From: Rhodoblastus acidophilus
Lineage (GTDB): Bacteria > Pseudomonadota > Alphaproteobacteria > Rhizobiales > Beijerinckiaceae
DNA: 64,000 nt
Direction of reading: 5' to 3'
Assembly (NCBI RefSeq): GCF_025961575.1
Contig: NZ_JAOQNX010000002.1
Coordinates: forward strand, 62,001 to 126,000
Position 1 is the stretch's first letter, and the number at the start of each line of letters is the position of its first letter. Below, in pieces: positions 30,534-64,000 of the stretch. The notes under the pieces are model-generated. The model searched no databases. It was not told the origin of the DNA and saw only the letters and a list, made by a program, of their open reading frames with translations. Both the position numbers and the translations under genes were made by a program.

Positions 30534-30596
30534 GCCGCCAAATCCAATAGGTCCAGCCGGCACAGCCGGAAGTATCACCACCACAGGAATACGGAA

Positions 30597-39241: not shown

Positions 39242-39254
39242 TTCCTAAAAATCC

Positions 39255-43880: not shown

Positions 43881-44213
43881 ATGCACGCCCGCATCATTTA
43901 CCCCGGAACTGGCCCGGACATCTATCGCCTATCCAAGGCTCTGACGGAGGACTTGGAGAAGATCGTCGCCGGCCTTGGGCCGACCGCCGCCGAATTGGCG
44001 TCAGCGCCCATCATCGACAACTGGTCGTTTGTGCCTCGACCGGAGATGGCGCTGGCAGGGCTGATTTCCGGCCATCCTCTCTTGGGGACAAAACACGGAA
44101 TCACATCAGAAATTTTCGCGTTGGACGAGACACGTTCGTGGGTCCGGACGTGGACAAGATGGTACCGCCTAGGCCGCCAAGCCGGCGTTGACGATGATCG
44201 GAAATCCCAATGA
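43881..44213 (+). CDS. DUF6634 family protein
   Basis: A 110-residue protein that reads MHARIIYPGTGPDIYRLSKA and later LISGHPLLGTKHGITSEIFALDETRSWVRTWTRWYRLGR. The GHPxLG...I-T-S-x-x-x-A-L-D...W-x-R-T-x-x-R-W-Y-R-L-G pattern matches what I recall of DUF6634, small proteins of mobile regions in rhizobia. It starts 6 bases after GGAGAACGATC (good ribosome-binding site) and its stop overlaps the FtsH-like start (ATGA). Role unknown. Confidence 0.65.
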   Translation: MHARIIYPGTGPDIYRLSKALTEDLEKIVAGLGPTAAELASAPIIDNWSFVPRPEMALAGLISGHPLLGTKHGITSEIFALDETRSWVRTWTRWYRLGRQAGVDDDRKSQ

Positions 44214-46168
44214 CCGACGACGACAGGCCTGACGACAGCGACGACGACGACTCCAGGAACGATGTCGTCGCTCCCTGCCCTTCCGACGGAAGGAAAAAGC
44301 GCTTGAAAACGTCCGCGCGCCGAGAGCTGATCGACCTGATCGTCGGTCAGGCTGTTGGCGCCTCGCTCATGCGGCGGCTGAAAACTCTAACCGGGAGGCC
44401 GCTCGTCGTCTCGGTGAAAGCTCCGGGCGCGGACTGGTGCAAACCGCTGGTTGGCGCGTTTCTTCGAACAAACGCCATGGCCATCCTCCGGGACGGTTCC
44501 ACGAAGGGTGACAATGCCGAGAAAGGCAACGATGTCGTTTCCGAAGCTCTGAGCGAGGGCAAGCATGTCGTCGGTGTCAGCCATCTACCGGAGGCCCTGC
44601 TGCCGGCGACACTGACGCGGGCCGCCGACGCGCGGGTGGAGGCGAAGCATCCCGATGGCAAAATTATCCGGCGGCTGATCTCTATGTGCGTCGGCAGACC
44701 GCCGAAGAACATTCCCGAAGACATCGTCGCCGGGCTGTCGTTCGACGACATCGTTTCGGCCTTCCGGCGCGGCGCGACGCCGTCGCAGGTGGTTGCGGCG
44801 CTGGCGGCGGCGTCCTCCGCGAAGTGCCGCGTCTCCGTTGAGGACAGCACGCCGCCACTGGACCGGATGCCCGGATATGCGCGGGAGCTGCGGGAGTGGG
44901 CGTTCGCCCTCGCAGAGGATGTCGATGCATGGCGGCGCCACGAACGGGAGTGGCGGTCGATCTCGTCGTCTGTCGTTCTCGCCGGCCCGCCGGGCACCGG
45001 AAAAAGTTTGTTCGCACGATCACTGGCGGCCACTCTTAAGGTTCCGATGATCGCGACCTCTGTCGCCCAGTGGTTTGGGACGACCGCCGGCTATCTTGAT
45101 TCCGTGATCAAGGCTGCCGACGCCGCGTTCGAGGGCGCACGCGCCGCCGCTAGGAACGGCGGCACGGGGTGCCTGCTCCTGCTCGATGAACTCGATGCGA
45201 TTCCGAACAGGAACAATGTCGATGATCGGCATGCAGCGTGGTGGACGACCCTGACGACCGGCCTCCTGCTCAGGCTGGACTCGGCCACCAGCGACCGCGA
45301 GGGCGTCATCCTTGTCGGCGCGACCAACCATGTCGAGAACCTCGACCCCGCGCTCATCAGGCCGGGCCGCTTCGACAAGATTCAAGTCGTTGGTTTTCCT
45401 GACTCGGTTGGGCTTGCAGAGATTATTTCCTTCCACATGGACGGCGCCATGTCGCCTGCCGATGTCCTGCCGCTTGCCCGCACGCAGGCCGGTTCGACGG
45501 GCGCCGAGGCAGCGCAGTGGGCGAAGGACGCGCTCAGGAGGGCGCGGACGGCGGGGCGGAACGTCTGTTTCGACGACCTCGTCGCCGCCATCACCAGCGG
45601 CGCCGAGATGTCGCCGGGCGACCGCCGGGTGACCGCCATCCACGAAGCCGGCCACGCCGTCGTCGGCGTCGTCGTCGGCAGGAGGATCGAGGCCGTCTCC
45701 ATCCTGAGCAAGGGAAGCACCGCAGGCGCGACGTCGATGCGCCGCGCAGGCAGCTGCTTCCTCCCGATGGACGATATCGAAAAGGAAGTCACCGTGCTGC
45801 TGGCAGGCAGGGCGGCGGAGATGGTCGTCCTCGGACGGGCGTCCGGCAGCGCCGAAAGCGATATCCGGGAGGCGACGAGCCTCGTCGCCGCCGCGCACGG
45901 CAGCTTCGGCCTCGGCGACGACCTGCTGTACCGCGGGTCGAGAGAAAAGGCGACCGAGCTGATCACGTTCGATCCGGCCTTCCGGCGTCTGGTCTCCGAG
46001 CATCTCGGCAGGCTGATGGACGCGACGCTCGACATCGTCAGGCGCGACCGGGCCGCGGTCGAAGCCATCGCCGACGCGTTGGTCGAGCGTGGATATGTCG
46101 AGGGCGACGACGCCGAGCGGATCGTCAAAGGCGCCGCGCCGATCATCGAAAAAGGAGACACACGATGA
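44210..46168 (+). CDS. Soluble FtsH-like AAA+ zinc protease (M41)
   Basis: A 652-residue protein combining an AAA+ ATPase and a zinc peptidase. Walker A GPPGTGKS is at 259-266, Walker B is LLLLDELDAI, the second region of homology is GATNHVENLDPALIRPGRFDK, and the M41 site HEAGH is at 478-482. Unlike FtsH, the N-terminus has no membrane helix; instead a highly acidic start (DDDRPDDSDDDDSRND) precedes a 250-residue unknown domain. It would therefore work in the cytoplasm, degrading unknown substrates. It is coupled to the DUF6634 gene and the small gene after it by ATGA overlaps at both ends, and stands just upstream of the Tn7-like genes on the same strand. Confidence 0.85.
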   Translation: MTDDDRPDDSDDDDSRNDVVAPCPSDGRKKRLKTSARRELIDLIVGQAVGASLMRRLKTLTGRPLVVSVKAPGADWCKPLVGAFLRTNAMAILRDGSTKGDNAEKGNDVVSEALSEGKHVVGVSHLPEALLPATLTRAADARVEAKHPDGKIIRRLISMCVGRPPKNIPEDIVAGLSFDDIVSAFRRGATPSQVVAALAAASSAKCRVSVEDSTPPLDRMPGYARELREWAFALAEDVDAWRRHEREWRSISSSVVLAGPPGTGKSLFARSLAATLKVPMIATSVAQWFGTTAGYLDSVIKAADAAFEGARAAARNGGTGCLLLLDELDAIPNRNNVDDRHAAWWTTLTTGLLLRLDSATSDREGVILVGATNHVENLDPALIRPGRFDKIQVVGFPDSVGLAEIISFHMDGAMSPADVLPLARTQAGSTGAEAAQWAKDALRRARTAGRNVCFDDLVAAITSGAEMSPGDRRVTAIHEAGHAVVGVVVGRRIEAVSILSKGSTAGATSMRRAGSCFLPMDDIEKEVTVLLAGRAAEMVVLGRASGSAESDIREATSLVAAAHGSFGLGDDLLYRGSREKATELITFDPAFRRLVSEHLGRLMDATLDIVRRDRAAVEAIADALVERGYVEGDDAERIVKGAAPIIEKGDTR

Positions 46169-46395: not shown

Positions 46396-46814
46396 TGCTC
46401 TTCAGTCCGATTTCTTCAATCTCGAGTCGATCGATTCGATCGCTACTTCCGGAAAACGCTGGGTATTTTCGGAAACCAACATTGGGGCGACTCAATTATC
46501 GCCGGTCGTCAAGATAGATTCTGCAATCGTCTTGGCTCATATTTGCGCTGTTCCGCACGGGGCGCGTTGGTGCCTCGCTGGAGTCGAGGAGACCGACGAA
46601 GAAAGCTTAGCCTAATAAGAACGCTCCGAGGATTTGCGTCCCCGGAGCGCGCATAAATCCACGCCGTTCGACCGATTGGGAAAGGGAGCGAACGGCATTT
46701 CACCGACGTCGCTGCCGCGACGGCGACAGGGACAATTTGCGCCGGCCTCCACCCGAACGTCAAGCGCGAATATCCCTGACCGAAGCGGCGGACGTCCTAA
46801 CGGGGACGACCACA
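46396..46814. other. Region upstream of tnsA, expected site of a transposon end
   Basis: A 420-base non-coding stretch ahead of tnsA. In Tn7-type elements the end with TnsB-binding repeats lies here. Two loosely similar stretches (TTCCGGAAAACGCTGGG near 46448 and TTTCGGAAACCAACATTGGG near 46468) are visible but too divergent to call as binding sites. An open frame running into tnsA from 46737 begins with TTG and is not used. Confidence 0.4.
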
Positions 46815-47630
46815 ATGGCGGAAACCGAAGGCGGCGCCAATTGCACCCCCATGCCATTATGGCGGGGCGTGGACATAGAGAACGAGCGCCGTTTTGCGCT
46901 TGATAAGAGGGTATTTAACACTGCGGCCACCATTGTCGTTGCGGAGAACGGCGGTCCGCTGCGCACGATCGTGACCGGCGGCAAGATCCACTACACGGGC
47001 GACTTCCAAAGCCGCAAGAACGGACGGACCTGCTCGTGGGAATCGGAGCAGGTCGAGCTGCCCGGAATGATGGAAGCCGAGGTGCTCACCACCGTAAAAT
47101 GGTGGCTTGCTCAGCCCTTCCGGTGCGAGATCCAGGACGGCCCCAAGAAGCTCGTCTACACGCCAGATCAAGTGCGCCGCGTGCTGGAAGGCGACACGTG
47201 GCGTGTCCTCGTTATCGAGTACAAGCGGGACTTATCCGAGGCCGAAAGGGACGAGGACTACGCGCGCAAGCTGGATGCGTTCAGGCAGCTCTGCCGCGGC
47301 GTGGGCTGGCGGTTCGAAATCCGCGACAAGAAAAGCCTCGGCACGCCGACCTACCGCCGCAATGTCGAAATGATTGCACTCGACCGGCGGACCCACGTGG
47401 CGCTGCGAGACCTCGACGCCATCCGCGCGCTCGCCGAGGACGGCGCCTTCGCATACGGCGCGGGATGCGAAAGACTCGGCGGCTACGTGGCCGGCAAAAA
47501 GAAACTGCACGCGATGATGGTGCGCCGTCTGGTCTCGATTCCGCTGACCCGCACAATCCTCCGCGATACACCTGTCGCGCTCGTCGATCGCTCGCGCGAG
47601 CCGATTGGCGGCAGCGGCCTGTTCGACTGA
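46815..47630 (+). CDS. tnsA: TnsA-like endonuclease
   Basis: A 271-residue protein of the TnsA family, which cuts the 5' ends of the transposon during cut-and-paste transposition. The catalytic core is a restriction-endonuclease fold: an E in SWESEQVELPG (E76 or E78), D118 in VYTPDQV, and E135/K137 in VLVIEYKRD. A wHTH C-terminal part (RNVEMIALDRRTHVALRDLDAIRAL, then RLVSIPLTRTILRDTPV) follows. ATG 46815 is preferred over TTG 46737. TnsB starts 9 bases after its stop. Length matches Tn7 TnsA (273). Confidence 0.9.
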   Translation: MAETEGGANCTPMPLWRGVDIENERRFALDKRVFNTAATIVVAENGGPLRTIVTGGKIHYTGDFQSRKNGRTCSWESEQVELPGMMEAEVLTTVKWWLAQPFRCEIQDGPKKLVYTPDQVRRVLEGDTWRVLVIEYKRDLSEAERDEDYARKLDAFRQLCRGVGWRFEIRDKKSLGTPTYRRNVEMIALDRRTHVALRDLDAIRALAEDGAFAYGAGCERLGGYVAGKKKLHAMMVRRLVSIPLTRTILRDTPVALVDRSREPIGGSGLFD

Positions 47631-47639
47631 GGCGGGCCG

Positions 47640-50000
47640 ATGGGGACGCAACTGATCCTTGATTTCGGGCGCGAGGCCGTCGTGACGAAGCACGCGCTGA
47701 AGTCCGGCGACGTCTACGAACTCGACGGTGTGCGGTACGTTTACAATCAGTCATTCGCCGCTCCCGAGGGCACGGCTCCCGAGGATTGGGCGGAACTGAA
47801 CGAATACCTCTTCCTCAGGGAGCGCGACGGAGTCCGGCTGCAACTCACCGAGCGCAGGCTCGACGAGTTAATCTACGACCGTCTGTTCAAGCCGGCAAAG
47901 GAGGGCAAGTCGCTGCCGCGACCGCTTCCGCCCGATGGCCCCAAGGACCCCAAGGCGCGGATGCGTCAGTTCTGGTGCGAACGCTACGACGAAATCCAGC
48001 CCATGAAGTCGGACGCCTCGCTGAAGGCGTTCGTCGAGGACGTGATCGCCAAGTATAAGAACGACGCCGAGTTCCAAGGCTTTCCCGGTTACCCGGAGAA
48101 AATCCCTCATTACTGGTCCATCTGCGACTGGGTCGAAAAGCGGGGATATCCCGGTTGCCGCCCCCTGTACTTGATGTGTTCGAAACGCTCCGGACGCAAC
48201 CATTTTCCGCGCGTCGTCGAGGATCTGATCAACGAGGCGATCGTCTGGTATTGGAGCGGGACTACGCGCGATCGGGTGAGCGCCCACATCCAGATCAAGG
48301 AGGCAATACGGCAGCTCAACAAGAAGGCGGAGCAGGATGGTGGCAAGCCGCTGCCAGTGCTGGCCTATTCGACGTTCTGCCGCAGGGTGTTCGAGTCCGA
48401 GAACAGAGCGACGTGGGGCGCCAAGTACGGCGAGAAGGCGGCGATAGCGCGCTTCGACGGCACGAACCCGCTGCCGGAGGCGAAGCGGATACTCCACGTC
48501 GTGTTGATCGATTCCACGACCGTGGACACGCACCTCGTTCTCGGAGACGACCTCCTGCCATTGGGCAGGCCAACGGTGAATTTCGCCGTGGACCTCTATT
48601 CGCGAGCGCTGCTCGCGATCTTCCTCACCTTTGAGCAGCCCAACCTCCACATGGCTATGGCGACACTTAAGAGGGTGCTGCTGCCGAAGCTGGATCTGAT
48701 GAACGCATTCCCCGAAATGCGGGTCACGCTGGAGCCGTATGGCACGCCATCGATCGTCGTCGTGGACAACGCGTGGGCGCAGGCGGGACACTCATATCGC
48801 GACGCCTGTGCCGACATGGGCATCGACCTGCGCTTCGCGCCGATCCATACGCCGCAAGCGAAGCCTTACGTTGAGCGGATCGTCGACACGTTCCACCGGC
48901 TCGTCTTCCACAAGGCGCCGGGGGGCATCCCCTACGACACCAAGGTTCTCCGCAAGCTCGGCTTCGATCCGCAGAAGACGCAAGTCCTCGACATCAACGA
49001 GCTTTGGGAGCGGGTGATCGAGGCCATGAACGTCTACCACCTCAAAGAGCACGACGGCATCGGCGTGGCGCCGATCATTGCATGGAGGGCAAGCGCCTTG
49101 GTTCACGGCATAGACGTATGCCCGAACCCGGATCATCTCGAAGCCGCCGCCGGCGAGGTGCTCGAGGCCAGCCTGACGCGACAGGGCATCAAGCTCGAAG
49201 GCGTTGTCTACCACGACCAGCGAACCGTGACGCACCTGATGGACAGGTTGGCGCCCATCGATTCATTGAAGTCAAAGCGCCGGACCTCGCAGCGCGCGCG
49301 TGTGAAGATCAAGCGCAACCCGGCGGACCTGACAGTCATCCATGTCTGGAACCGGCGCGACGAGGAATACGTGCCGCTGCCAGCGGATAACGCGAATTTC
49401 CTTATGGGCCTGACCAAGACTCAAGCCAAGACCATCAAGATCATGGCGGAGCAGGCCGGACTGCCGTTCGACACGGACGTGGAGTGCTGCAAGGCGCGCG
49501 TTCAGCTCATCCAGAGACTGGAGGACGCCAAGCCACAGTGGCTGAAGGATGAGGAGAAGAAGCGGCAACGCATTCTGCTCGCCGATCGCCCCGGGCTGAT
49601 CTCCGGCAGCATTCTCCGCGTCGCCGCCGCGCCCGCCCGCCACGATGGCATGGCGCCGATCATCGACGAGTCTGGCGTCCACGTCCCCATCGACCACGGA
49701 AGGCGCGCCGGCGGGGGCGAAGCCGTAAAGGGTTCGCGGCGCGGCGGGAAAGCTGCAACCCGCAAAGCCACGGCGACCCGGCGCAACTCCAAGGCGCTTT
49801 CGGACGCCCTGAACGCGCAGGCCGCGGCAGAGCGCGAGAGCCCTTCGGTCAAAACAGTGCATCCGGCGAAGGTCGAGTTTTCGGTGCCGCCGCGTTCGCC
49901 GCCGTCCGAAGGAAAGCTTTCAATGCGCGAGCAAATTTTGGCCAGCCTGGCGGCATCAGAGGGATGGGGCCCGGGCTCCCAGCCATCGAAGAAGGAGTAG
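47640..50000 (+). CDS. tnsB: TnsB-like DDE transposase
   Basis: A 786-residue Mu/TniA-type transposase that joins 3' ends to target DNA. The RNase H catalytic triad is D291 (VLIDSTTVD), D376 (VVVDNAWAQ) and E412 (KPYVERIVD); D376 to E412 leaves 35 residues between, a DD35E spacing. N-terminal helix-turn-helix domains (residues about 80-270) bind the ends; the C-terminal beta barrel and tail (Arg/Ala-rich, ending PGSQPSKKE) contact TnsC. TnsC begins 5 bases after its stop. The C-terminal 100 residues are low-complexity. Confidence 0.93.
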   Translation: MGTQLILDFGREAVVTKHALKSGDVYELDGVRYVYNQSFAAPEGTAPEDWAELNEYLFLRERDGVRLQLTERRLDELIYDRLFKPAKEGKSLPRPLPPDGPKDPKARMRQFWCERYDEIQPMKSDASLKAFVEDVIAKYKNDAEFQGFPGYPEKIPHYWSICDWVEKRGYPGCRPLYLMCSKRSGRNHFPRVVEDLINEAIVWYWSGTTRDRVSAHIQIKEAIRQLNKKAEQDGGKPLPVLAYSTFCRRVFESENRATWGAKYGEKAAIARFDGTNPLPEAKRILHVVLIDSTTVDTHLVLGDDLLPLGRPTVNFAVDLYSRALLAIFLTFEQPNLHMAMATLKRVLLPKLDLMNAFPEMRVTLEPYGTPSIVVVDNAWAQAGHSYRDACADMGIDLRFAPIHTPQAKPYVERIVDTFHRLVFHKAPGGIPYDTKVLRKLGFDPQKTQVLDINELWERVIEAMNVYHLKEHDGIGVAPIIAWRASALVHGIDVCPNPDHLEAAAGEVLEASLTRQGIKLEGVVYHDQRTVTHLMDRLAPIDSLKSKRRTSQRARVKIKRNPADLTVIHVWNRRDEEYVPLPADNANFLMGLTKTQAKTIKIMAEQAGLPFDTDVECCKARVQLIQRLEDAKPQWLKDEEKKRQRILLADRPGLISGSILRVAAAPARHDGMAPIIDESGVHVPIDHGRRAGGGEAVKGSRRGGKAATRKATATRRNSKALSDALNAQAAAERESPSVKTVHPAKVEFSVPPRSPPSEGKLSMREQILASLAASEGWGPGSQPSKKE

Positions 50001-50005
50001 TGGAG

Positions 50006-51085
50006 ATGGACGACAGGAAACGGACGTGGTCGCAGGATTATCGGGCGCTGCATTGGGCGATCAACGACGCGCCCGACGTCACCATGCACCCGGACTACGA
50101 TCGTCACATTGCGGAGTTCCGGAACATATTCATCGAGCACCCTCGTCTCACCTACATGCACAAGGCTTTCAACAGCCTCAGGAGGGAGGCGCTTATCAAT
50201 CGCGGGAAGGAGCAGTTCGTCGTGCCTGTCATCGGGCCATCACAGTCGGGCAAGACGACGGCCATCGAGAGCTATGTTGAATTGATCAAGAAAAAGAAGG
50301 ACATACCAAAGGGCCACATGCCTGTCGTGCGCGTCAACCTTTCGCCGCGCTCGAGCTTGAAGCAGTTCCAGTCGGACATTCTGGCTCCCCTCGTCATTGA
50401 CGACACGGGCTATTGCGACACTTCCGAACTCACCAGCGGGACGGAAGCCGAGTTCCGGGCCCGGGTTCGGCGCTATGCTGAGCTTCGAAGGACCGAATTG
50501 ATCGTAATCGACGAAGCGCAGCACGTTCTTCGGGCCAACAACCCCCACAGGGCGAAGCAAGTGGCCGACATGGTGAAGCTGATGTCGATCGAGGGAGCGA
50601 CGGCCTTTGCCGTCGTCGGCACCGAGGAGTCGTGGCCGATCTTCCACTCCAATGGAGACCAGACGCCCTATCGTTGCATGGAGCCGTTGATCCTCAGCCC
50701 GCTCGACTTCGAGGACGAGAAGGAAGCCAAGATGTTCAAGGGCTACGTCGCCTTGCTGGACGAGAAGCTCACACAGCATCACTTAACGTCCGAATACAGC
50801 GATTTCGCTGAAGGAGATATGCCAGCCGCCTTTTGGGAGGTGACCCGCGGAATTCTGGAACGCGTGTCGCGGGTCGTCAGAACCGCTTGGCAATATTCTT
50901 TTGCGCTCGGCTCTCCTCGCGTGGAAAGGATGCACCTCGCCGCGGCGATCGACAGGTGGGCATTCCCTCTCAACCTGTGCCGCACTAATCCCTTCCGCGA
51001 CGGCGCCCGCGAAATCCACGTGATCAAGGACGAATGGGTTAGGAATCCCTCTCCTGAGAGGGCATGGGAAAGAGCCTGCATATGA
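50006..51085 (+). CDS. tnsC: TnsC-like AAA+ ATPase
   Basis: A 359-residue ATPase of the TniB/TnsC family that links target recognition to the transposase. Walker A is GPSQSGKTT, Walker B is LIVIDEAQHVL, followed by FAVVGTEESWP as sensor. The ATG at 50006 reads MDDRKRTWSQDYRALHWAIN and follows GGAGTAGTGGAG; a longer frame upstream to 49964 overlaps the TnsB end. The stop overlaps tniQ by 4 bases (ATGA). Confidence 0.9.
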   Translation: MDDRKRTWSQDYRALHWAINDAPDVTMHPDYDRHIAEFRNIFIEHPRLTYMHKAFNSLRREALINRGKEQFVVPVIGPSQSGKTTAIESYVELIKKKKDIPKGHMPVVRVNLSPRSSLKQFQSDILAPLVIDDTGYCDTSELTSGTEAEFRARVRRYAELRRTELIVIDEAQHVLRANNPHRAKQVADMVKLMSIEGATAFAVVGTEESWPIFHSNGDQTPYRCMEPLILSPLDFEDEKEAKMFKGYVALLDEKLTQHHLTSEYSDFAEGDMPAAFWEVTRGILERVSRVVRTAWQYSFALGSPRVERMHLAAAIDRWAFPLNLCRTNPFRDGAREIHVIKDEWVRNPSPERAWERACI

Positions 51086-53076
51086 CCCGCTATGGCGTAA
51101 GCAGGGCCGAAGACCTGCCCGACGAGATCGGGATTGCAGTTACGGACACCGAGGGCGGAACGCTAAAGTCTTTCGTCGGCACAACGGGACCGATGCCCGA
51201 TGAAAGCTTGATCGGGTGGCTCGCTCGCACAGCCGCTTTCAACGCCCATCGCTCGCTGGTTAAGACGCTCTGGAGCAAAGTGGGCGTCCGCGCCCCAAGC
51301 CCAGCCGCGATCAGCCAGTCGCTGCGGGGCGAGGCCGCGCGTGTTGCCTTTCTGCTCAGGGCGGACCCCAATGAAGTGTTGGCGCGCGCCTGTCCGGAGA
51401 TTGTCGGCGCCGGCTCGGCGGCCCGCATCGACTTTTTCGGCGTTCCGATCAGGCCACACTATCGCAACCTCGGCGTCAGACGCGTGTCGCCGCTGGCGCT
51501 GCGCCAAAGTGGGTACCATCGCGCCGTGTGGGAACTGAGGCCGCTCGCCTTCGATCCGGGCACGATGGAGCGCCTGCTCCAGAACTGCCCGGTCTGCGGG
51601 AGCGTCCTCGGATGGCGCCGCACCTTCGGGATATGCCATTGCGACCGCTGCAAGGATCGTCACCGGCGCCCGACCGTGGATCTCCGCGCTTTCCCGCAGC
51701 CGCTCGTCGAGGTGGAAGACATGGAGGCGCTCGCCTTCGTGGCCTCCCTCGTTGACCCGCTTCGCTCCGAACCGACCGTTTGGGGTTCGCGCCTTTCGTC
51801 CGAGGTGCGGGAGCTCTCGCGCGGAGAAATGTTCGACCTCTCCGTGGCGCTCGCCGCCGTGTTGGAAAACGACTCGCTGCCACCGGGCGAGCGGCGCGCG
51901 CTTCGGTTCTCAAAGGCGGTGGGGGCGCTGGGCCTTGAGCCGAGGTTCCTCGCTCTCGCCGGCAGGGCGTTGCTCGACTGGCCGAGGGGCTTCTTCCGCG
52001 TTGCCGACGCTCTGCGCGAGGGCATGGACGAGCGGGGGGGCGCCTTCGGCCTAAACAAGGAGCTGGGATCCCTCCTGCGGGCAAAGCGCGCCGCCCGTTT
52101 CGGCGGGCGCGTGGACGCCCTGCTCGACCGAGGCATCGCCGCGGACGTGGCGCGCACGGACATGGACGAGCTGCTGCTGAGGCGCGAGGAGTACCGCTCG
52201 GCGAACAGGATCAACGTGCGCGAAGCCGTGCGTGAGTTCGGCATCGATCAGGACAGGCTGGTGCGGCTCGCAGACAGCGGCGCCCTCAAGTGCGTCCGAC
52301 ATCGTCGCATTATCGTCTTCGACCGCGCCGAACTCGAAGAGGTCATCTTGCAGCGCGCCGATGCCGTCGGCGCCATGAGGACGGCGGCGCTGATCGGCGT
52401 CCCACTCGGCGCCCTGCCGGACCTCACGGCGCACGGCCTCGTTGAGAAAATCAAGGGACCGGTGGTGGGGATGCTGAAGGAAAAGGAGCAGTACCGCCTG
52501 TCGGCGCTTGACGCACTGCTGGCGAAGCTGCGGGACCGGGCGCATGAGCATGCCCGAGTAGGAGACGAGCGGCTGACGCTGTCGGCAAGTCACCTGTTCG
52601 TTGGCCCCAAGCCGTGGGCAGGAATCGTCGAGGCGGTGCTGTCGGGCATGCTTCCTGTGCGCTCGCTGAATAATCGACTGGAAGGCGTCCTTGACCGCAT
52701 GGCCGTTGACCCAGACGAGTTCGGTGTCCTGTCAGCGCGCTTCGGCACACCGGTCGCGGCTGATCTCGACGGAATGACCAATTACGTCGAGGCCGCCGCG
52801 TTCTTCGGCGTTTCTCGCGCCTGCTTCAGCGAGCTGACATCGGCAGGACTGCTGCCGGCGCGCGACCGCGTCAACCTGCGCATCCGGCGCGGCGACCTCG
52901 CCGACTTCGCCGACAAATTCCTGTTCACCGGGGAGGCTGTGCGGCGACTTCGCCTGACAAAGGCCGAGGGGATCGCCTTCCTGCGAGCACAAGGGGTCGA
53001 ACCTGTCGCCATCATGCTCAAGGGCAAGATGCAGCTTTGGGCCAAGGCGGACGTGCAGGTGTTCTTCGTGGCCTGA
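51082..53076 (+). CDS. tniQ: TniQ/TnsD-family target-selection protein
   Basis: A 664-residue protein. Residues 1-190 form a TniQ domain: PMPDESLIGWLARTAAFNAHRSL, then CPVCGSVLGWRRTFGICHCDRC with the zinc-binding cysteines. Downstream are repeated helix-turn-helix-like units (NVREAVREFGIDQDRLVRLADSGALK; YVEAAAFFGVSRACFSELTSAGLLP), suggesting a sequence-specific DNA reader, like TnsD which targets a fixed chromosomal site. The targeted site is unknown. Starts at ATG 51082, overlapping tnsC. The long C-terminal array of winged helices is larger than in stand-alone TniQ. Confidence 0.88.
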   Translation: MTRYGVSRAEDLPDEIGIAVTDTEGGTLKSFVGTTGPMPDESLIGWLARTAAFNAHRSLVKTLWSKVGVRAPSPAAISQSLRGEAARVAFLLRADPNEVLARACPEIVGAGSAARIDFFGVPIRPHYRNLGVRRVSPLALRQSGYHRAVWELRPLAFDPGTMERLLQNCPVCGSVLGWRRTFGICHCDRCKDRHRRPTVDLRAFPQPLVEVEDMEALAFVASLVDPLRSEPTVWGSRLSSEVRELSRGEMFDLSVALAAVLENDSLPPGERRALRFSKAVGALGLEPRFLALAGRALLDWPRGFFRVADALREGMDERGGAFGLNKELGSLLRAKRAARFGGRVDALLDRGIAADVARTDMDELLLRREEYRSANRINVREAVREFGIDQDRLVRLADSGALKCVRHRRIIVFDRAELEEVILQRADAVGAMRTAALIGVPLGALPDLTAHGLVEKIKGPVVGMLKEKEQYRLSALDALLAKLRDRAHEHARVGDERLTLSASHLFVGPKPWAGIVEAVLSGMLPVRSLNNRLEGVLDRMAVDPDEFGVLSARFGTPVAADLDGMTNYVEAAAFFGVSRACFSELTSAGLLPARDRVNLRIRRGDLADFADKFLFTGEAVRRLRLTKAEGIAFLRAQGVEPVAIMLKGKMQLWAKADVQVFFVA

Positions 53077-53560: not shown

Positions 53561-54378
53561 AGATCTCGGTTTGCGGAGACGGCCGCCGCCTGAGGGGCAT
53601 AGCAAAGAGGCTGAGGTCGCGATTGGCGACGAATGGCAAAGATATCGGCGTGCTGGAGTCACGAAATCTCGTCGCAAGAATGTTCGGGTACCTAGACGTT
53701 CACCATGCAAGCTTTGCCCGCTGGGACGATGAGCAGGCGCCGCTCGACGGGTTCGCCTCGCCCGAAGTGGAGGAGACCAGGCGCGCGCATTACGTGGACG
53801 TCCTCGTTGAATGGGGGCTTGATGAAGACGAGGCGCGACAGGTCGTCCACGACATCGGTCCGTCAAGGCGCGAAGTCTGGCGCGCGGGGCGGCGGCGTAA
53901 GCCGATCCTCGCAGACGTTTTCTGCAAAGACAGCGAGGCGCAGCCCCTAGACGCGGGCGCGCAGGGCGATCAGCCGCCGGTTGTCCCGAACAGAAATCTC
54001 TTTGCGCCGACGAGGGCAACACGGGCCAAGATCGCGGGGGAGATGCGCTGGGTTCTCGACGCGTGCCCGGCGGGATTTCCGGGCGTGACGAATGCCGGGT
54101 GTTGGGTCGCGATCGACGCCGACACTCGCCTGCTCCTTGACGTCTACATAAGGTCGGACGATCGAGCCAACGACGAGGTCAATTTCCTCCGGCACCTGCT
54201 AGTAAAGTTCGGCTGCCCTCGTCAGCTTTTCGTCGATTACGCCTTGTGGTGTTCGGAGGAATTCAGGGACGCCGTTGTGCGTCAGGGCATCGATCTGTTC
54301 GTCGGCACAAAACCGTGGGCTGAGATCGCCGAGCGGGTGCTGTTGCGCGAGATTCGGCGCGCTCGCTATAGGGAGTAA
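53557..54378 (+). CDS. Minimal RNase H-fold integrase-like protein with D,D,E set (273 aa)
   Basis: Reads MKISVCGDGRRLRGIAKRLR; the C-terminal half is an integrase core: D168 in RWVLDACPAGF, D227 in LFVDYALWCSEEF and E256 in TKPWAEIAERV. The block KPWAE aligns with KPYVE of TnsB and FVDYALWC with VVDNAWAQ. The interval between second D and E is only 28 residues (35 in TnsB), so loops are trimmed. The N-terminal half (LSSRDRLA-like helices, FGYLDVHHASFARW) is unrelated to TnsB. It ends at 54378 and is the last gene of the module. It may be a second recombinase or an accessory DNA-binding factor; no family name is known to me. Confidence 0.6.
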   Translation: MKISVCGDGRRLRGIAKRLRSRLATNGKDIGVLESRNLVARMFGYLDVHHASFARWDDEQAPLDGFASPEVEETRRAHYVDVLVEWGLDEDEARQVVHDIGPSRREVWRAGRRRKPILADVFCKDSEAQPLDAGAQGDQPPVVPNRNLFAPTRATRAKIAGEMRWVLDACPAGFPGVTNAGCWVAIDADTRLLLDVYIRSDDRANDEVNFLRHLLVKFGCPRQLFVDYALWCSEEFRDAVVRQGIDLFVGTKPWAEIAERVLLREIRRARYRE

Positions 54379-54553
54379 AGACCAGTTTGGGACGAGGACG
54401 GATGTGGCGCGGTTCTTCGTCGGTTCAGTTTTTCAACGATCAGCGCCGACAATCACGGAAAAATATTGGATAGCCACAAAAAAGTTTGACGTCTCCAATT
54501 CAGCTGCGACCATCGATGAAAGTGATTTGGTCGCAATTAGTAGAGAGACGCGG

Positions 54554-55630
54554 ATGACCGTGAACCCGCCACATATTCCTTCCCGCGAACTGATCGAGAA
54601 CGGCACGATCCGGGAAGATCGCTTCTATGAGTTCAAACATCGCGATGCGCTCGACGACAGCGACAAAAAGAAGTCCGACATCGTCGATGACGTTATCGGA
54701 TTTCTGAATGCTGAACGCGTCGGCCACATCGTGTTCGGCATTAGGGACAAACGTGGCGCGTTCGGCGAATGGGTCGGCTTTTCAGATGATCAAGACAAAA
54801 CCAAGCGGAAAATCATCTCGTTCCTGCACGATCTGATTGACCCGAAGCCAACTGGACTAGCCATCGGATTCATTGAACTCGACGGCGGCGAATATGCCAT
54901 TGACCTCAGGATCGCACAGCACCGTTTTCAGCCCTATCAGAACAGGCGAACCGGCGGGTTCAAGATTCGCATGGACGCAGAGAACGCCGTGATTAAGCGC
55001 GACGATATCTACGCCCAATTCAAGAAGATTGAGGACTTTAAGGCCGATCTCGTCAAACGGTGCCTAGAGGAAGACCGCGCAGTCGCAGAAGCAAACGACA
55101 TGGCGGACGAGGGCGCAATCCTGACGATCAGCATCCTTCCCCGGGATCATTACGAAAACTTGCCGCCCCTATGCGTGGGCGACAGACATGTAATGCGGCT
55201 GTCCGGGAGGGATTACCATTATCACCGACAGATATGGTTCAAGGGGTGTGGAAACGGCCAAGAGGCAGTCAGCATTGACGGAAATAGCAAGGTGATTACG
55301 CGGCTGATGGTGGCCGACGATTGGTTTATCCACGCAACGGTTGCCCACCCGATACAATGCGACGAAGAACGCGGGCGCAGTTTTTCGGCATTGAAGGAAA
55401 TGCTGCACGACTTCCTGTCCGGAATCGAAGAACTCGCCAAGGCATCGAACGTGCGCGGTCCGTTCCTGCACAGAGCCGAGTTCACCAATCTGGGTAGAGG
55501 GAGGATCAAGGGAGCGTTTCACAGGCATGCGCCGCTCGTCGTCATGGGCGGCTTGGTTGAACAGATCACGGATGAAGGCTTTGTTGATCGCGTCTACGAG
55601 AAGGCCCTTTCCGTTTCGATCTATCGTTAA
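54554..55630 (+). CDS. AlbA_2 (Schlafen-like) domain protein
   Basis: A 358-residue protein. The N-terminal domain carries EDRFYEFKHRDALDDSDKKKSDIVDDVIGFLNAERVGHIVFGIRDKRG, the AlbA_2/Schlafen-type ATP-binding signature (E-F-K...D-V-x-x-F-x-N-x-x-G-G-x-I-x-x-G-I). The C-terminal half is an unknown beta-rich domain ending YEKALSVSIYR. ATG 54554 is preferred; the open frame goes back to 54275 through the previous gene. It precedes gajA by 45 bases in the same direction and is plausibly an accessory or regulator of the Gabija operon. The region upstream to 54379 shows an AT-richer composition. Confidence 0.75.
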   Translation: MTVNPPHIPSRELIENGTIREDRFYEFKHRDALDDSDKKKSDIVDDVIGFLNAERVGHIVFGIRDKRGAFGEWVGFSDDQDKTKRKIISFLHDLIDPKPTGLAIGFIELDGGEYAIDLRIAQHRFQPYQNRRTGGFKIRMDAENAVIKRDDIYAQFKKIEDFKADLVKRCLEEDRAVAEANDMADEGAILTISILPRDHYENLPPLCVGDRHVMRLSGRDYHYHRQIWFKGCGNGQEAVSIDGNSKVITRLMVADDWFIHATVAHPIQCDEERGRSFSALKEMLHDFLSGIEELAKASNVRGPFLHRAEFTNLGRGRIKGAFHRHAPLVVMGGLVEQITDEGFVDRVYEKALSVSIYR

Positions 55631-55675
55631 AAACCCGGCTCCCGGACGCACGCCGAAATTTTGAGGGCATCGCAT

Positions 55676-57571
55676 ATGCATCTCGCTTCCATTTCAATAT
55701 CGAATTTCAGGTCCTTCGAGCGCGAAGAGATCACCTTGACCCCGCATGTCAGCATTCTCGTCGGCGAGAACAATGGGGGGAAGAGCAACGCCATCGACGC
55801 GATAAGGCTTCTCATTTCTCCGCTGAACGAGCGGCGTGAAATCTATTGCGAGCAGACCGATGTGCGTTTCGGTTCGGAAGCTCGCCAGTTCGAGATATCC
55901 GCGACGTTTGAAGGCTTGAGTCCTTCGCAGCAGGGCAGGTTTATTTCGGCGGTCATTGACCAGAAGATGGACACGGCTGTCCTTGGGATGACCTATGATG
56001 AGAAGCTGGGGCGCATACCCGCGCGACCGAGCTATTGGGGCGGACAGTTCAAGGCCGAACCGGAAGCCGGATGTCGAGACATGGTGCGGCACGTCTACCT
56101 GCCGCCGCTAAGGGACGCCAAACGCGCGCTCGCTTCAGGAAATCCCACGCGGATTCATGCACTCCTACAGCATTTTCTTGGGGAAACGGATCCGAAGGCG
56201 TTGGCTCAACGCCTCGGTCGCCAAGCCCATGACGAAGTTCTCAAGGCTGTGGACATGGCCGTTGACGACAATCTCAAGCAGCTTTCTTCAGGGGTCCGCA
56301 AGCAGGCATCTTCGCTGGGGTTCTCTTCCGACGAAACCCTCATAGACATCGCCCGCGACCTTCGCTTCAAGCTCGCAGATCACGGGATCGAACCGGAGGA
56401 TCTGCGCTATTCCGGCCATGGGTACGCCAACCTGCTCTACATGGCGACGATCGCGGTCGAACTCGAAAAGGTCGGGACCGCCGACCTGACCCTGTTTCTT
56501 GTCGAGGAGCCTGAGGCGCACCTGCACCCGCAGCTACAGGCCGCAGTCCTTTCGTTCCTTGAGGAGCAGGCGGAAAAGTCTAGAAAGAAGCAGACTGGCT
56601 TTGGGCCAGCCGGACAATTGCAGGTCGTCGTGGCGACGCACTCCCCAAACCTTTCTGCATGGGTGCCGTGCAAGAACCTGATCGTGATCAAATCTCAGCC
56701 GGCGCAAATCACAGCGGTCGCAAGCGCACCAGAAAACGGGTCAGACGCATCAGCAGCAACGGCGACAACGGCGACAACGGCGGCGGCAACTCAAGAGCCG
56801 GCAGCGGAGCCCACCCGTCAGGAAGCAACTTCTGCTGCTGCGGCTCAGGATTCATTGCGCAGATCGACGCGTTGCGTCCCGCTCAGTGTGCTCGAAATGA
56901 GTGCCGCCGATCTGGCGAAGATCGATAGATACCTCGACGTGACCAAGTCATCCTTTCTGTTCGGAGGCAGAACCCTGCTCGTCGAAGGCATTGCCGAGGC
57001 GATCCTCTTTCCCGTGTTCGCAAAGCAATACGTGCTGAAGGAATCCATTGAGAAAATGCGCGCCTTCCGCACCGCCGTGTTCGTGCCTATCGACGGGGTC
57101 GATTTCAGGCCGTACGCCAGCTTGCTACTGACTCCCCACAATGGCGTTCGAGTGGCCGACCGCCTCGTCGTCGTAACTGATGGCGACGGCTTCAAGGCAG
57201 CTCCGGGAGAGGTGGCGCCGGGCGCGAAAAGGAAGACCGAGTTGGAGGCGCTCGCCACGGGCCTGAATGCCGCTGACGTGCTTGATGTCATGATCAACAC
57301 CTATTCGCTGGAAAGCGAACTGGTCGAGGCGGGGAACGGCGACATCCTGAAGGAGATATACCTCACATTTCATTGCAGATCGGAAGAAAAATGGGACGCA
57401 GCCGTCGCGAAGACCGGGCTCGATAGGGCAAAGGCGATACAGTCGTTGTTCGAGGACACGCGAAAGGGCGACTTTGCACAGAGGCTGGCCGAGCGCCTGT
57501 CCGGCGACCATCCGCCGGTCTTCCATGTTCCGAATTATATTAAGGAAGCGATCGAGGCTCTGGTGCGATGA
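55676..57571 (+). CDS. gajA: Gabija GajA, OLD-family ATPase/Toprim nuclease
   Basis: A 631-residue protein with an ABC-type ATPase (Walker A GENNGGKSN at 30-38; signature YSGHGYANLLYMA; Walker B LTLFLVEEPEAHLHP) and a Toprim nuclease domain (LLVEGIAEAILFPVF with the catalytic glutamate; VVTDGDGFK with DxD). GajA is a sequence-specific DNA nicking enzyme that is released when nucleotides are depleted. Between the ATPase and Toprim lies an Ala/Thr-rich insert (about residues 341-405; PENGSDASAATATTATTAAA). ATG 55676 is used; ATG 55661 would add five residues. It overlaps gajB by 4 bases (ATGA). Confidence 0.9.
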   Translation: MHLASISISNFRSFEREEITLTPHVSILVGENNGGKSNAIDAIRLLISPLNERREIYCEQTDVRFGSEARQFEISATFEGLSPSQQGRFISAVIDQKMDTAVLGMTYDEKLGRIPARPSYWGGQFKAEPEAGCRDMVRHVYLPPLRDAKRALASGNPTRIHALLQHFLGETDPKALAQRLGRQAHDEVLKAVDMAVDDNLKQLSSGVRKQASSLGFSSDETLIDIARDLRFKLADHGIEPEDLRYSGHGYANLLYMATIAVELEKVGTADLTLFLVEEPEAHLHPQLQAAVLSFLEEQAEKSRKKQTGFGPAGQLQVVVATHSPNLSAWVPCKNLIVIKSQPAQITAVASAPENGSDASAATATTATTAAATQEPAAEPTRQEATSAAAAQDSLRRSTRCVPLSVLEMSAADLAKIDRYLDVTKSSFLFGGRTLLVEGIAEAILFPVFAKQYVLKESIEKMRAFRTAVFVPIDGVDFRPYASLLLTPHNGVRVADRLVVVTDGDGFKAAPGEVAPGAKRKTELEALATGLNAADVLDVMINTYSLESELVEAGNGDILKEIYLTFHCRSEEKWDAAVAKTGLDRAKAIQSLFEDTRKGDFAQRLAERLSGDHPPVFHVPNYIKEAIEALVR

Positions 57572-59310
57572 CCGTGAAGCGTTTCGATCCGACCGCGCAG
57601 CAGGCAGCCGTCATCGGTCATGTCGGTTCGGCTTTCGTGGAGGCTTGTCCAGGAGCGGGTAAGACACGGGTCATGGTTGAACGGGCGCGGAGACTGCTCA
57701 GTTCCAGAACGGCAACGCAGGGCATAGCTTTTCTGTCTTTTACCAATGCAGCGATCGATGAGTTGGCTTCGAGACTGCGGCGAGAAGGAATCGTTTCGCC
57801 GACACCATTCCCGCATTTCTTGGGAACTTTCGACAGCTTTCTGTGGAGCTTCTTCGTTGCCCCCTTTGGCGCGCCAGACTGCCCTTTGCCACCGAGGCTG
57901 ATGCCTGACATGGAGCGCATTCAAATCAAACCTTACGACGGAGCGCGGCCTTTGCCGCTCTCCTGCTTCGACAAGGTCACGGGGAGCATCATCGTCGGGT
58001 CAAGAGATTTAGGGGGCTTCGATCCGACGCAACGCAGCGCCAGAGCTTATGAGACCGCTGCCAAACAAATTCGGCAGAGCCTGAGCGAGAAAGGTTTTCT
58101 CGACTACGGAGACGTTAGATCGATCGCGTTAGCGCGCATCGCCGATTCGACGACTGCGTCCCGCTTGGCTGCTGCTTTGGCTACCCGTTTCAGCGAAGTC
58201 ATTGTGGACGAGGCTCAGGATTGCAATCCAGACGACTTGAACGTGATCCGCTGGCTCCGCACATCCGGCATCCCGACCATGGTGATCTGTGACCCCCATC
58301 AGTCGATCTATGGCTTCAGGGGCGGCGTAACGGATCATTTGTTCGCATTTCGAGATGAATGTTCAGTCTCCAAGCATTTGCCCATGTCGGGGAATTTCCG
58401 GTCGAACGCCGCCATCTGCAACGGGATCGTCGCGCTGAGGAATAAGGATCATCGCGACCAAAGGGATGAGCCGCTGGGACTGAACAAGGACGATGCCACG
58501 CCCGTTCACATTCTCTCCTACCGCGGAACGCTGTCATCAGCCGTGGGCGAGGCATTCAAGAAATTGCTGGACGACCATGGCATCGAAGCCTCGGCCTGCC
58601 CCGTGTTGGCCACCACGCGAGACTGTGGCGGTAACGCGATCGGCCAGCCTGCGTCGAACAAATCCGAACACATGTCCATTCGATTGGCGAGCGCCGTCAG
58701 CGAATTTCATTTCGCCGGCGAACCCAGCGAACGTATCGCCGCGATGGAAGCTCTCCACCAGATAATCCTCAAGATGGAGGGGCGTCTCGACGGCACGACC
58801 TACCGGAAGTATTTGTCCGAGGGCCGCATCAAGCCCGACAGTTGGCGCCCGCGCGTGATTTCCCTCATGGATGCGTTGCGGTACGACGCGACGACCTTCG
58901 CGACCCCAGACGCATGGCTGGAACGCGCTCGAACTGTATTGGCGGAATACGCGACGGGTGGCAGGTCAATGGGCCAGCTGCTTCGCTCAACAACAGACCT
59001 TGGCAATGCGCTGGCCACGCCCTCGACTTTGGAACTCGCAGCGCGCACGATCCACTCCGTGAAGGGCATGGAGTTTCCCGCTGTGTGCGTGGTCCTGAGC
59101 ACCGCTATCGCGAAAGGCGTCATCGATCACTTGATTGATGGGGGTGGCTCTGAAACCGCGCAGGAGAACGCGAGAAAAATCTATGTAGCGGCCTCGCGCG
59201 CTGAGAGATTGCTTGTATTCGGCGTTCCCCACAAGCAGGCGCGAAGGTTTGGAGACCATTTGATTTCGAATGGCGCGCAGGTAGTCCACGGTGAGATGAT
59301 TGCTCAATAA
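57568..59310 (+). CDS. gajB: Gabija GajB, UvrD/PcrA-like helicase
   Basis: A 580-residue superfamily 1 helicase. Motif I ACPGAGKTRV, motif Ia FLSFTNAAIDELASRL, motif II VDEAQDCNP, motif III QSIYGFRGG, motif V TIHSVKGMEFPAVCVV and motif VI YVAASRAERLLVFGV are all present. With gajA upstream it forms the two-gene Gabija system, in which GajB senses DNA ends and consumes ATP, triggering GajA. The start codon overlaps the gajA stop. Its 3' end lies 38 bases before an IS1595-family insertion. Confidence 0.92.
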   Translation: MTVKRFDPTAQQAAVIGHVGSAFVEACPGAGKTRVMVERARRLLSSRTATQGIAFLSFTNAAIDELASRLRREGIVSPTPFPHFLGTFDSFLWSFFVAPFGAPDCPLPPRLMPDMERIQIKPYDGARPLPLSCFDKVTGSIIVGSRDLGGFDPTQRSARAYETAAKQIRQSLSEKGFLDYGDVRSIALARIADSTTASRLAAALATRFSEVIVDEAQDCNPDDLNVIRWLRTSGIPTMVICDPHQSIYGFRGGVTDHLFAFRDECSVSKHLPMSGNFRSNAAICNGIVALRNKDHRDQRDEPLGLNKDDATPVHILSYRGTLSSAVGEAFKKLLDDHGIEASACPVLATTRDCGGNAIGQPASNKSEHMSIRLASAVSEFHFAGEPSERIAAMEALHQIILKMEGRLDGTTYRKYLSEGRIKPDSWRPRVISLMDALRYDATTFATPDAWLERARTVLAEYATGGRSMGQLLRSTTDLGNALATPSTLELAARTIHSVKGMEFPAVCVVLSTAIAKGVIDHLIDGGGSETAQENARKIYVAASRAERLLVFGVPHKQARRFGDHLISNGAQVVHGEMIAQ

Positions 59311-61567: not shown

Positions 61568-63283
61568 TCAATAGCGGTCCAAAAACCGACGCTGCATTTC
61601 GCCTTCGCCGCCGCAGTCACGGCACTCGTAGCCATCAACGGTCCGTCGCCCTCTACAAACCGGACATTTGACCATCGCATAATCGCGCAAGTCGATTTGC
61701 TCCGCCTGACGGCGCTCGACCTCACCGTCTCCTCCGCAGGCGGGGCAGTCCTCCCCCATGTATGTTCGCTTGCCACGGCACAGCGGGCATTTGACGTCGG
61801 CGTAGTCTCGGAGATCGATCTGATCGGCGAGATAGCGCTCCATCGTCCGCTCTCCGCCGCATGCAGGACATTCCATGCCGCGGCGTGAGCCCTTCCCGTC
61901 GCAGACGGGGCAATTCACTTCATTGTAGGCGCTGAGGTCGACCCGGTCTGCCAAGTGGCGTTCAATTTCGCCCTGACCGCCGCACTCTGGACAGTCTGTA
62001 CCGTGATACCGGCCATCGCCGCCGCAAAGCGGACAATTCACGTCTTCGTAAGCGGTTGCATCGAACAATTGCGCGAAGCGTCCTTCCATCTGGCCCTGCC
62101 CCCCGCACTCGGGGCAATCGCGTCCTTTGAACTTGCCGGAACCGCCGCAAAGAGGGCATCTTACGTCTTCGTAGTCACGCGGATCGATCTCCTCGAAATA
62201 ATAGCGCCGTATCGTTTTCTCGCCACCGCAGACAGGACAAAAATCTCCCTTTCGGGTGCCATTGCCATGGCAGACCGGGCAAGTGACGGGCTCGAAGTCG
62301 CGAGTATTGACCCGGCATGCGACGCTTTCGGGAACCTCTCTGTCGCCATCACATACCGGACATTCGCTGCCCTCATAGTAACCTTTGCCTTCGCACAGAG
62401 GGCAGCGCACGTAACCTAGGGCGGCGGCGTAGCGTGCGCGGATGCCTGCCGCCGTTTTCAGCCTGGTTGGGAGCCTTGAAATGCTTTCGTTTCCGAGCGC
62501 GGCGACATCTTTTTGAACTGATACGAAAGCCAGGATGTGCGGATCGGCAGATGGCGGAGGACCAAGCTTAGGCAGCGCTGCAAGGGTCTTCTCCGCCAAG
62601 TCCTCAACAGCCTTGACCTGAGAAGGAGTTGTCGCCGCCGCGAGCTGCTTCTCAAGGCTGTCACAGTTTTCCAAGAGGAGGAACGCCCTGCGGCAAGCCT
62701 CAGCCTGCTTAGTCCAGAGCACTCGATTGAAGCGTTGCAGAGCGAGCTTGAAACCGTGGATGAAACCCTCGTCTTCTTTTCGCGGCCCATACACCCCCTT
62801 GAGCAGCCCCTTATCAAAGCAGGTGTGGTGGTTTGCGCAGAGCCAAATCAGGTTGTGGGGGTGGTTATTGTTACTCTTGGCCACAGGGTCGATATGAGCG
62901 GCTTCACAACTGTCCTTGTGGGAATGACAAATGGCACAGGAACCGCCGGCCTCGTCGATGATCTCGTCTTTAATGCCTTTTGGAACGGGCGGGCGCGCGT
63001 CGCCTTTCCGCGGCCACGGAGCTCGCAGCCAAGCGTCAAAGTCGCGGATTTCCTTATCTTCGAAGAAAAGCTCCTCACCTACCTTATCAGCGACCTTCAG
63101 CTTCCGCTTTTCTCCAGACTTGGGGGCGTACGATGTCAACCACTCCAAGAGCTTCGGCGAAAGCCCAACAGCGGCGGCAGCTTGATACTGGTTGAGCAGT
63201 TCACTTTTTTTGGCGTGCGACATGAGAGGCTTCAACGCTACCGAATCTCGGGTTAATATAGCTGGATCGGCGGCGGGATCCAT
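61568..63283 (-). CDS. HNH endonuclease fused to seven DnaJ-type zinc-finger repeats
   Basis: A 571-residue protein (MDPAADPAILTRDSVALKPL; an internal ATG at residue 21, MSHAKKSELL, is an equally good start). N-terminal helices (AAAVGLSPKLLEWLTSYAPK) precede an HNH nuclease core at residues 112-160: GGSCAICHSHKDSCEAAHID (zinc cysteines and H130) and NLIWLCANHHTCFDKGLL. A helical spacer (residues 160-290) follows. Residues 292-571 are seven tandem repeats of 41 residues, each with CP(L/V)C-x-G-x(6)-(D/E)C-P-x-C-G-G, the cysteine-rich zinc-binding type of DnaJ. The HNH part could cut DNA and the repeats may bind proteins, unfolded chains or RNA. Convergent to the DUF5677 gene; the next gene on the same strand ends 158 bases away. 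Confidence 0.85.
   Translation of the reverse strand: MDPAADPAILTRDSVALKPLMSHAKKSELLNQYQAAAAVGLSPKLLEWLTSYAPKSGEKRKLKVADKVGEELFFEDKEIRDFDAWLRAPWPRKGDARPPVPKGIKDEIIDEAGGSCAICHSHKDSCEAAHIDPVAKSNNNHPHNLIWLCANHHTCFDKGLLKGVYGPRKEDEGFIHGFKLALQRFNRVLWTKQAEACRRAFLLLENCDSLEKQLAAATTPSQVKAVEDLAEKTLAALPKLGPPPSADPHILAFVSVQKDVAALGNESISRLPTRLKTAAGIRARYAAALGYVRCPLCEGKGYYEGSECPVCDGDREVPESVACRVNTRDFEPVTCPVCHGNGTRKGDFCPVCGGEKTIRRYYFEEIDPRDYEDVRCPLCGGSGKFKGRDCPECGGQGQMEGRFAQLFDATAYEDVNCPLCGGDGRYHGTDCPECGGQGEIERHLADRVDLSAYNEVNCPVCDGKGSRRGMECPACGGERTMERYLADQIDLRDYADVKCPLCRGKRTYMGEDCPACGGDGEVERRQAEQIDLRDYAMVKCPVCRGRRTVDGYECRDCGGEGEMQRRFLDRY
61571..62410 (-). repeat. Seven 41-codon (123-bp) zinc-finger repeats inside the HNH gene
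   Basis: Starting at residue 292 the motif VRCPLCEGKGYYEGSECPVC recurs every 41 residues for six full units, and the seventh is 34 residues long. The conserved frame is V-x-CP[LV]C-x-G-x-x-x-x-x-G-x-[DE]-CP-x-C-x-G, then an acidic-aromatic linker ending [DN]-x-x-[DA]-[YF]. The repeats differ from each other in about a third of positions, so the array is not a recent duplication at DNA level. Confidence 0.92.
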
Positions 63284-63441: not shown

Positions 63442-64000
63442 TTAGTGCCGCTCCTCGCAGGCTTGGTCCGGAGCTACCTCATAATCCAACTCGGTCTTCG
63501 TACCCGGCTGAATCATTTGTACGTACCGCAATGATGGAATGTATTTAAAGCGTTGTCCATTTGGCTGAGGAGGGGCAACACCCCGAGCCTCAAGTGTTAT
63601 TGTGAATTTGAGATCTGGCTTGTCCATTGGTAACGTGTAATATTCACGAATAAAGCTCCCTTCAGGGGAGTTCCAAATCAACATCAATGGATCAATGGTG
63701 TCACAGGGTAATTCTGCCTGTGGGCTTGGGACGTTCATGCTTGTTACAGGACCATCTTGATGTTCAATGGCGCCCCCCGAAGAGTTTTCTTGAGCGGGCG
63801 GCGTACCGTTCAACGCCGGCTTTATCCCTGCTTCACAAATTAGGTCATGCAACCGCCTTGCGGCGGAAACCTTTCTTGCCAGAAACGGGATTGAACACCT
63901 AACAACCGCTTCGTACGAACCTGCGGCTTTTTCGATTTCCTGATATTTTTTCCATTTTTCGCCGTTTTCGTTCCAATGGTAGAGCATTCCATAGAGGAAT
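63442..64000 (-). CDS. Hypothetical protein, partial
   Basis: A frame of at least 181 codons ending TGA-complement at 63442. The first methionine in the window reads MLYHWNENGEKWKKYQEIEK, but the frame stays open to the window edge, so the true start may be outside. The N-terminal part is helical (WKKYQEIEKAAGSYEAVVRC); the C-terminal half is beta-rich (TITLEARGVAPP, YIPSLRYVQMIQ). No family is recognised. It ends 158 bases upstream of the HNH gene on the same strand, so the two may be co-transcribed. Confidence 0.5.
   Translation of the reverse strand, partial: FLYGMLYHWNENGEKWKKYQEIEKAAGSYEAVVRCSIPFLARKVSAARRLHDLICEAGIKPALNGTPPAQENSSGGAIEHQDGPVTSMNVPSPQAELPCDTIDPLMLIWNSPEGSFIREYYTLPMDKPDLKFTITLEARGVAPPQPNGQRFKYIPSLRYVQMIQPGTKTELDYEVAPDQACEERH

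Follow-up and report, generated by a model that had tools for sequence, protein, structure and literature searches.

The zinc modules of the chaperone DnaJ and of anti-TRAP (RtpA) bind proteins. Anti-TRAP, a 53-aa oligomeric regulator that carries no nuclease, binds TRAP (PMC2896485). A zinc part of DnaJ/anti-TRAP type is joined to an HNH part in the PADLOC candidate defence protein PDC-M01B (PDLC04253), whose 366-position profile has the HNH part at about positions 96-167 and the C-terminal zinc part at 289-364; its companion gene is PDC-M01A, and where PDC-M01B was called in Bacillus cereus the calls overlap with those of Septu (PMC11758030, PMC11811056). Tn7-like transposons carry cargo that is rich in defence genes (PMC8649781). 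Here we describe a gene of Rhodoblastus acidophilus, lying within a 64,000-nucleotide stretch of DNA that we analysed as a whole (the window), in which an HNH domain is followed by a long zinc array. The initial annotation knew of no described system with such a layout, a claim that PDC-M01B contradicts, having both HNH and DnaJ-type zinc parts, though its HNH is a different one. In the literature we found no description of the HNH-array protein, including as Tn7-like cargo; most subscription journals lay outside this search, and because so many did, the result is weak evidence of novelty.

The HNH-array gene occupies 61568..63283, as first annotated, and lies on the minus strand of the window. 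It encodes 571 aa, although alignment with homologs suggests that the true start may be Met21 (window 63223). The layout originally proposed, an HNH core followed by seven 41-residue units with two CxxC motifs each, was borne out. Pfam HNH_2 (PF13391) scored 34.6 bits (cut-off 21) on residues 116-161 (62801..62938), and the array consists of fourteen CxxC motifs in seven 41-aa units, with a spacing of 14, 27, 14, 27 and so on, without a single exception. Each unit has the form CxxC-x10-CxxC. In order from the N-terminal end, and like the HNH domain all on the minus strand, the units are unit 1 (62294..62416, residues 290-330), unit 2 (62171..62293, residues 331-371), unit 3 (62048..62170, residues 372-412), unit 4 (61925..62047, residues 413-453), unit 5 (61802..61924, residues 454-494), unit 6 (61679..61801, residues 495-535) and unit 7 (61571..61678, residues 536-571). 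A nucleotide pattern spanning two successive units matched the window six times, versus no match in 100 dinucleotide shuffles. Units 3 and 4 have CPECGGQG in common and are likely a recent duplication specific to the window protein, while the last unit is divergent across the family, its inner spacing being shorter in three homologs.

The description of these units as DnaJ-type fingers held in part. Pfam DnaJ_CXXCXGXG (PF00684) matched the window protein above its cut-off (1.5e-21), and the knuckles resemble the CxxCxGxG type of the DnaJ Cys-rich domain; the units are, however, closer to single-zinc anti-TRAP modules. Pfam Anti-TRAP was likewise above its cut-off (1.6e-11), NCBIfam RtpA scored 83 bits against a cut-off of 65, and anti-TRAP shares with the window units both the CxxC-x10-CxxC one-zinc module and the best PDB fold match. 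Judged by its motifs, each unit appears to be a complete one-zinc anti-TRAP-type C4 module and not half a DnaJ domain. The label "anti-TRAP-type" therefore seems at least as exact as "DnaJ-type", because a single CxxC-x10-CxxC unit is the whole anti-TRAP zinc module. Further, DnaJ has four motifs that form two zinc sites, whereas the window protein has fourteen at the regular 14/27 spacing. The array is predicted to bind zinc. That the protein is itself a DnaJ was ruled out by the lack of a J-domain match, TIGR02349 matching the Cys-rich part only (86 versus 377 bits).

HNH_2 was matched in all nine members scanned (best 1.1e-9), and residues C116, C119, H130, C149, H152, H153 and D157 are conserved in each of the eight distinct family members, while the Asn of the HNH motif varies (the Methylobacterium aquaticum protein reads HPAGL). 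In Foldseek searches of the PDB, the folds nearest to the HNH domain were those of ScoMcrA and of the Gme HNH nickase (probabilities of 0.95-0.99, but weak E-values of 0.26-0.40). The domain is predicted to cleave DNA. Ahead of it, the AlphaFold2 model shows an N-terminal domain (63020..63202, minus strand; residues 28-88) built in the order strand, two helices, hairpin, helix, with a pLDDT of about 82-92 over most of its length. This domain would be winged helix-turn-helix-like and possibly DNA-binding. No Pfam HTH model matched it, and a PDB search with its profile was rejected as giving designed or helical chance matches only. When the first 274 residues were modeled from nine sequences (mean pLDDT 77.7), the result contained the winged-helix-like start, then the HNH domain and then a helical bundle, the models placing a helical region between HNH and array at residues 168-288 (62420..62782, minus strand). 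In the full-length AlphaFold2 model, built from four sequences, the array is predicted with confidence, most pLDDT values lying at 84-90 from unit 3 onward, and a strand-helix-strand pattern repeats in every unit. The best PDB fold matches of the modeled array were anti-TRAP, with weak Foldseek E-values (0.2-0.5, including the HNH search).

The array has a net acidic charge in all 11 copies of the gene (-10 to -21, the zinc thiolates not yet counted), which speaks against a nucleic-acid grip, one of the roles offered in the initial annotation, and for protein binding or scaffolding. The same charge weighs on the idea of a type IV-like restriction enzyme, in which the array would recognise the modified or unusual nucleic acid that the HNH domain cuts. 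Such an enzyme would suit the defence setting of the loci (below), the weak match of the HNH domain to PT-DNA restriction enzymes in NCBIfam, and an HNH fold nearest to that of ScoMcrA, a phosphorothioate-dependent type IV enzyme with the same McrA-type zinc knuckle (CxxC plus C-x2-H). No match to the sulfur-binding domain of ScoMcrA was found in the window protein, however; NF045808 gave 20 bits against a cut-off of 180, over the HNH part only, and the zinc array stands in place of that domain. We consider this explanation unlikely.

Eleven intact full-length copies of the gene were found, corresponding to eight distinct sequences. Of 397 genomes in the GTDB family of the host, profile searches recovered it in 8, one of them the window's own. 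They also recovered it in 2 of 299 Pseudomonas genomes, and among 385 genomes of the class they returned no full-length relative other than the window's own. A tblastn search of plasmids added a full-length relative on an M. aquaticum megaplasmid (aligned over 90% of the query at 39% identity). The relatives within the host's genus have DnaJ alone and no HNH-array homolog. A plain-sequence scan of genome contigs for relatives found nothing; a relaxed Cys-spacing pattern run on genome contigs was overwhelmed by matches to other Cys-rich proteins and is not a census, but a Pseudomonas homolog was first met among its listed matches. No family member occurred in 50,697 records of phage collections, and scans of IMG/VR viral sequences gave no relative, a stricter pattern returning only viral DnaJs and low-complexity matches. 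Several viral contigs (L143, L159, L297-L302) encode DnaJ-like chaperones whose zinc-motif spacing fits the 41-residue pattern. In one genome of the same order (G1335; L329 / L340), a family copy is broken by a frameshift. Loss of the HNH-array gene thus also occurs.

The N-terminal domain, the HNH domain and the array are present in all eleven intact copies, so that no intact homolog has dropped the HNH part. In 349 genomes from the phylum, matches to the array profile (E < 1e-8) were limited to the HNH-array family, the broken G1335 copy among them, and to DnaJ-sized proteins, indicating that the array goes with HNH in this sample. The window protein has seven units and the ten other copies have six. 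As six units are found even in distant members, the array is old, as had been supposed; that it is also selected is upheld by its cysteines, which are invariant in the alignable units of the eight distinct members, and by dN/dS values of mostly 0.1-0.3 among four close copies. These values are alike in the N-terminal part and the array, and both parts are under purifying selection. Unit-by-unit positional orthology between distant members was not discernible, save between the two Pseudomonas proteins. In the tree, one genus (g4) occupies two widely separated positions, and its G983/G1003 sequence type groups with other genera; the disagreement between sequence types and host genus in g4 fits horizontal transfer.

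Gabija and Tn7-like genes had been reported near the gene, and both are indeed in the window: GajA (55661-57571) and GajB (57568-59310) on the plus strand, and TnsA-like, rve/TnsB-like, TniB/TnsC-like and TniQ genes at 46737..53076 on the same strand. Immediately ahead of Gabija is a Schlafen/AlbA_2 domain protein (54275-55630). Elsewhere in the window, a PLD-type helicase, a DUF1156 methyltransferase and a DUF499 ATPase (33417-42961) form a three-gene defence set according to PADLOC models, and a patatin-like phospholipase adjoins a T6SS Tle1-like phospholipase domain protein (29496-32162). Upstream of the HNH-array gene lies a gene of 349 aa (63442..64000, minus strand) that is cut by the window end, continues at L021:7443-8492 and matched no Pfam or PADLOC model. 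Past the window end, further upstream and on the strand of the HNH-array gene, are a short pAgo and a DUF4365-APAZ nuclease (SPARDA-type pair, L021:9462-11228 and 10904-12232, equivalent to window coordinates 65461-68231).

The neighborhoods of the homologs are for the most part rich in defence genes as well. One locus (G1072) has a GajA/GajB-like pair 72 bp downstream on the shared strand, a distance of about 135 bp if its likely start is taken, and others contain a Dsr1-type SIR2 and a DUF4238 protein (G1066), a cytosine methylase, an HATPase and a Z1-type helicase (G1003), or KAP (PifA-like), PLD, SIR2 (ThsA-like), zeta toxin and DUF4365 proteins (Pseudomonas G395). Conversely, loci of the M. 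aquaticum type have transposases and metal transport or efflux genes and no clear defence gene. A gene for an AAA plus peptidase M41 protein (FtsH-like; IetA-like in PADLOC) lies about 5-17 kb from the HNH-array gene in three loci (window 44210-46168; L318:2024-4324; L319:14952-16928) and is absent at the others. The three proteins are 34-35% identical to each other, yet among background genomes of the host's family only about one in ten has a full-length relative; the recurrence may mean that the islands are of one type or that the two genes are functionally linked. No neighbor gene is common to most loci, a TnsB-like gene being found in two, and for this reason the HNH-array gene probably acts alone.

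These neighborhoods bear on two further explanations. The protein could be a nuclease effector that serves as an add-on to neighboring systems such as Gabija or pAgo, and does not act alone; the Gabija genes near the window gene, the Gabija-type pair in G1072 and the AAA-M41 protease gene in three loci would agree with this. The two Gabija pairs are unlike one another, however, matching different PADLOC models, several loci have neither Gabija, pAgo nor AAA-M41, and no gene is common to most loci. We regard an add-on role as improbable. Equally improbable, in our estimation, is a toxin or regulator spread by islands, with no direct anti-phage role, in which the HNH domain would serve self-killing or gene control and the array would hold it in a chaperone-like manner. 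The protein-binding habit of DnaJ and anti-TRAP zinc modules, as in the binding of TRAP by anti-TRAP, and the RES and zeta toxins near the gene in Pseudomonas loci are compatible with such a role, but no conserved antitoxin-like partner accompanies the gene.

Pseudomonas G913 has its comM gene in two pieces, the C-terminal one near position 3766 of the contig and the N-terminal one near 53022. Between them is a 49-kb Tn7-like element (3772-52995) with TnsB-like, TniB and TniQ genes inside, a TTTAG 5-bp target duplication and end repeats that agree in 23 of their 30 bases. The HNH-array gene (12213-13718) is shown to be cargo of this Tn7-like element, because it lies inside an element with target duplication and end repeats in a split comM. 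For the window gene, two kinds of search found no flanking Tn7-like ends. A homing or mobile-element endonuclease is scarcely credible, even though HNH domains are common in homing enzymes and the gene travels with a Tn7-like element, since it is absent from the phage records, was not found in the IMG/VR scans and lies outside any intron or intein, and since we know of no role in homing for an array of six or seven units.

The best explanation, to which we give evenly balanced confidence, is a stand-alone, modular HNH nuclease of mobile islands with a multivalent, protein-binding zinc array, probably directed against invaders. In such an enzyme, the N-terminal winged-helix-like domain would help to position the protein on DNA and the McrA-like HNH domain would cut it, with the helical bundle connecting these two parts to six or seven one-zinc modules of anti-TRAP/DnaJ type in a stiff row. 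The row would present repeated protein-binding faces, and its partner may be either (i) a protein assembly of the invader, serving as the trigger, or (ii) a host or self partner for oligomerisation; binding would either hold the HNH domain in check or bring it to its target. Protein binding by the array, triggering, and protection against phages or plasmids would be properties of such an enzyme. A more specific version, which we think doubtful, is that the array is a valence-counting protein sensor: its six or seven near-equal faces would attach to a structure of the invader that is itself repetitive (capsid, portal, filament or coat), and multivalent engagement would release or assemble the HNH domain. 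Against the island nuclease as a whole stand the HNH motif Asn, which is not conserved (HPAGL in M. aquaticum), the M. aquaticum-type loci, which sit among metal-transport and transposase genes, the weak Foldseek E-values (0.2-0.5), and the nature of the island context: neighbors are mostly defence genes, and a defence role presumed from them is guilt by association.

The family matters as a nuclease joined to a long array of protein-binding modules, encoded by a mobile gene with no fixed partner that is found mostly beside defence systems, and with a unit number that is nearly fixed. If it is an immune enzyme, a zinc module of chaperones and regulators would have been multiplied into a sensor or scaffold. 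Anti-TRAP has its module in a small separate protein, whereas here the units are fused into one protein of 571 aa. PDC-M01B is matched by the window protein in its zinc part (3.9e-24), the best match spanning profile positions 295-364 and all matches of the window gene falling within 291-364, so that its HNH part is unmatched. That HNH belongs to another subfamily, and PDC-M01B has one short zinc region in contrast to the six or seven units here; no PDC-M01 or Septu-like partner ATPase is common across the HNH-array loci. We class the HNH-array proteins as a distinct family of predicted HNH nucleases, each encoded by one gene in an island and bearing a multiplied zinc array of anti-TRAP type.
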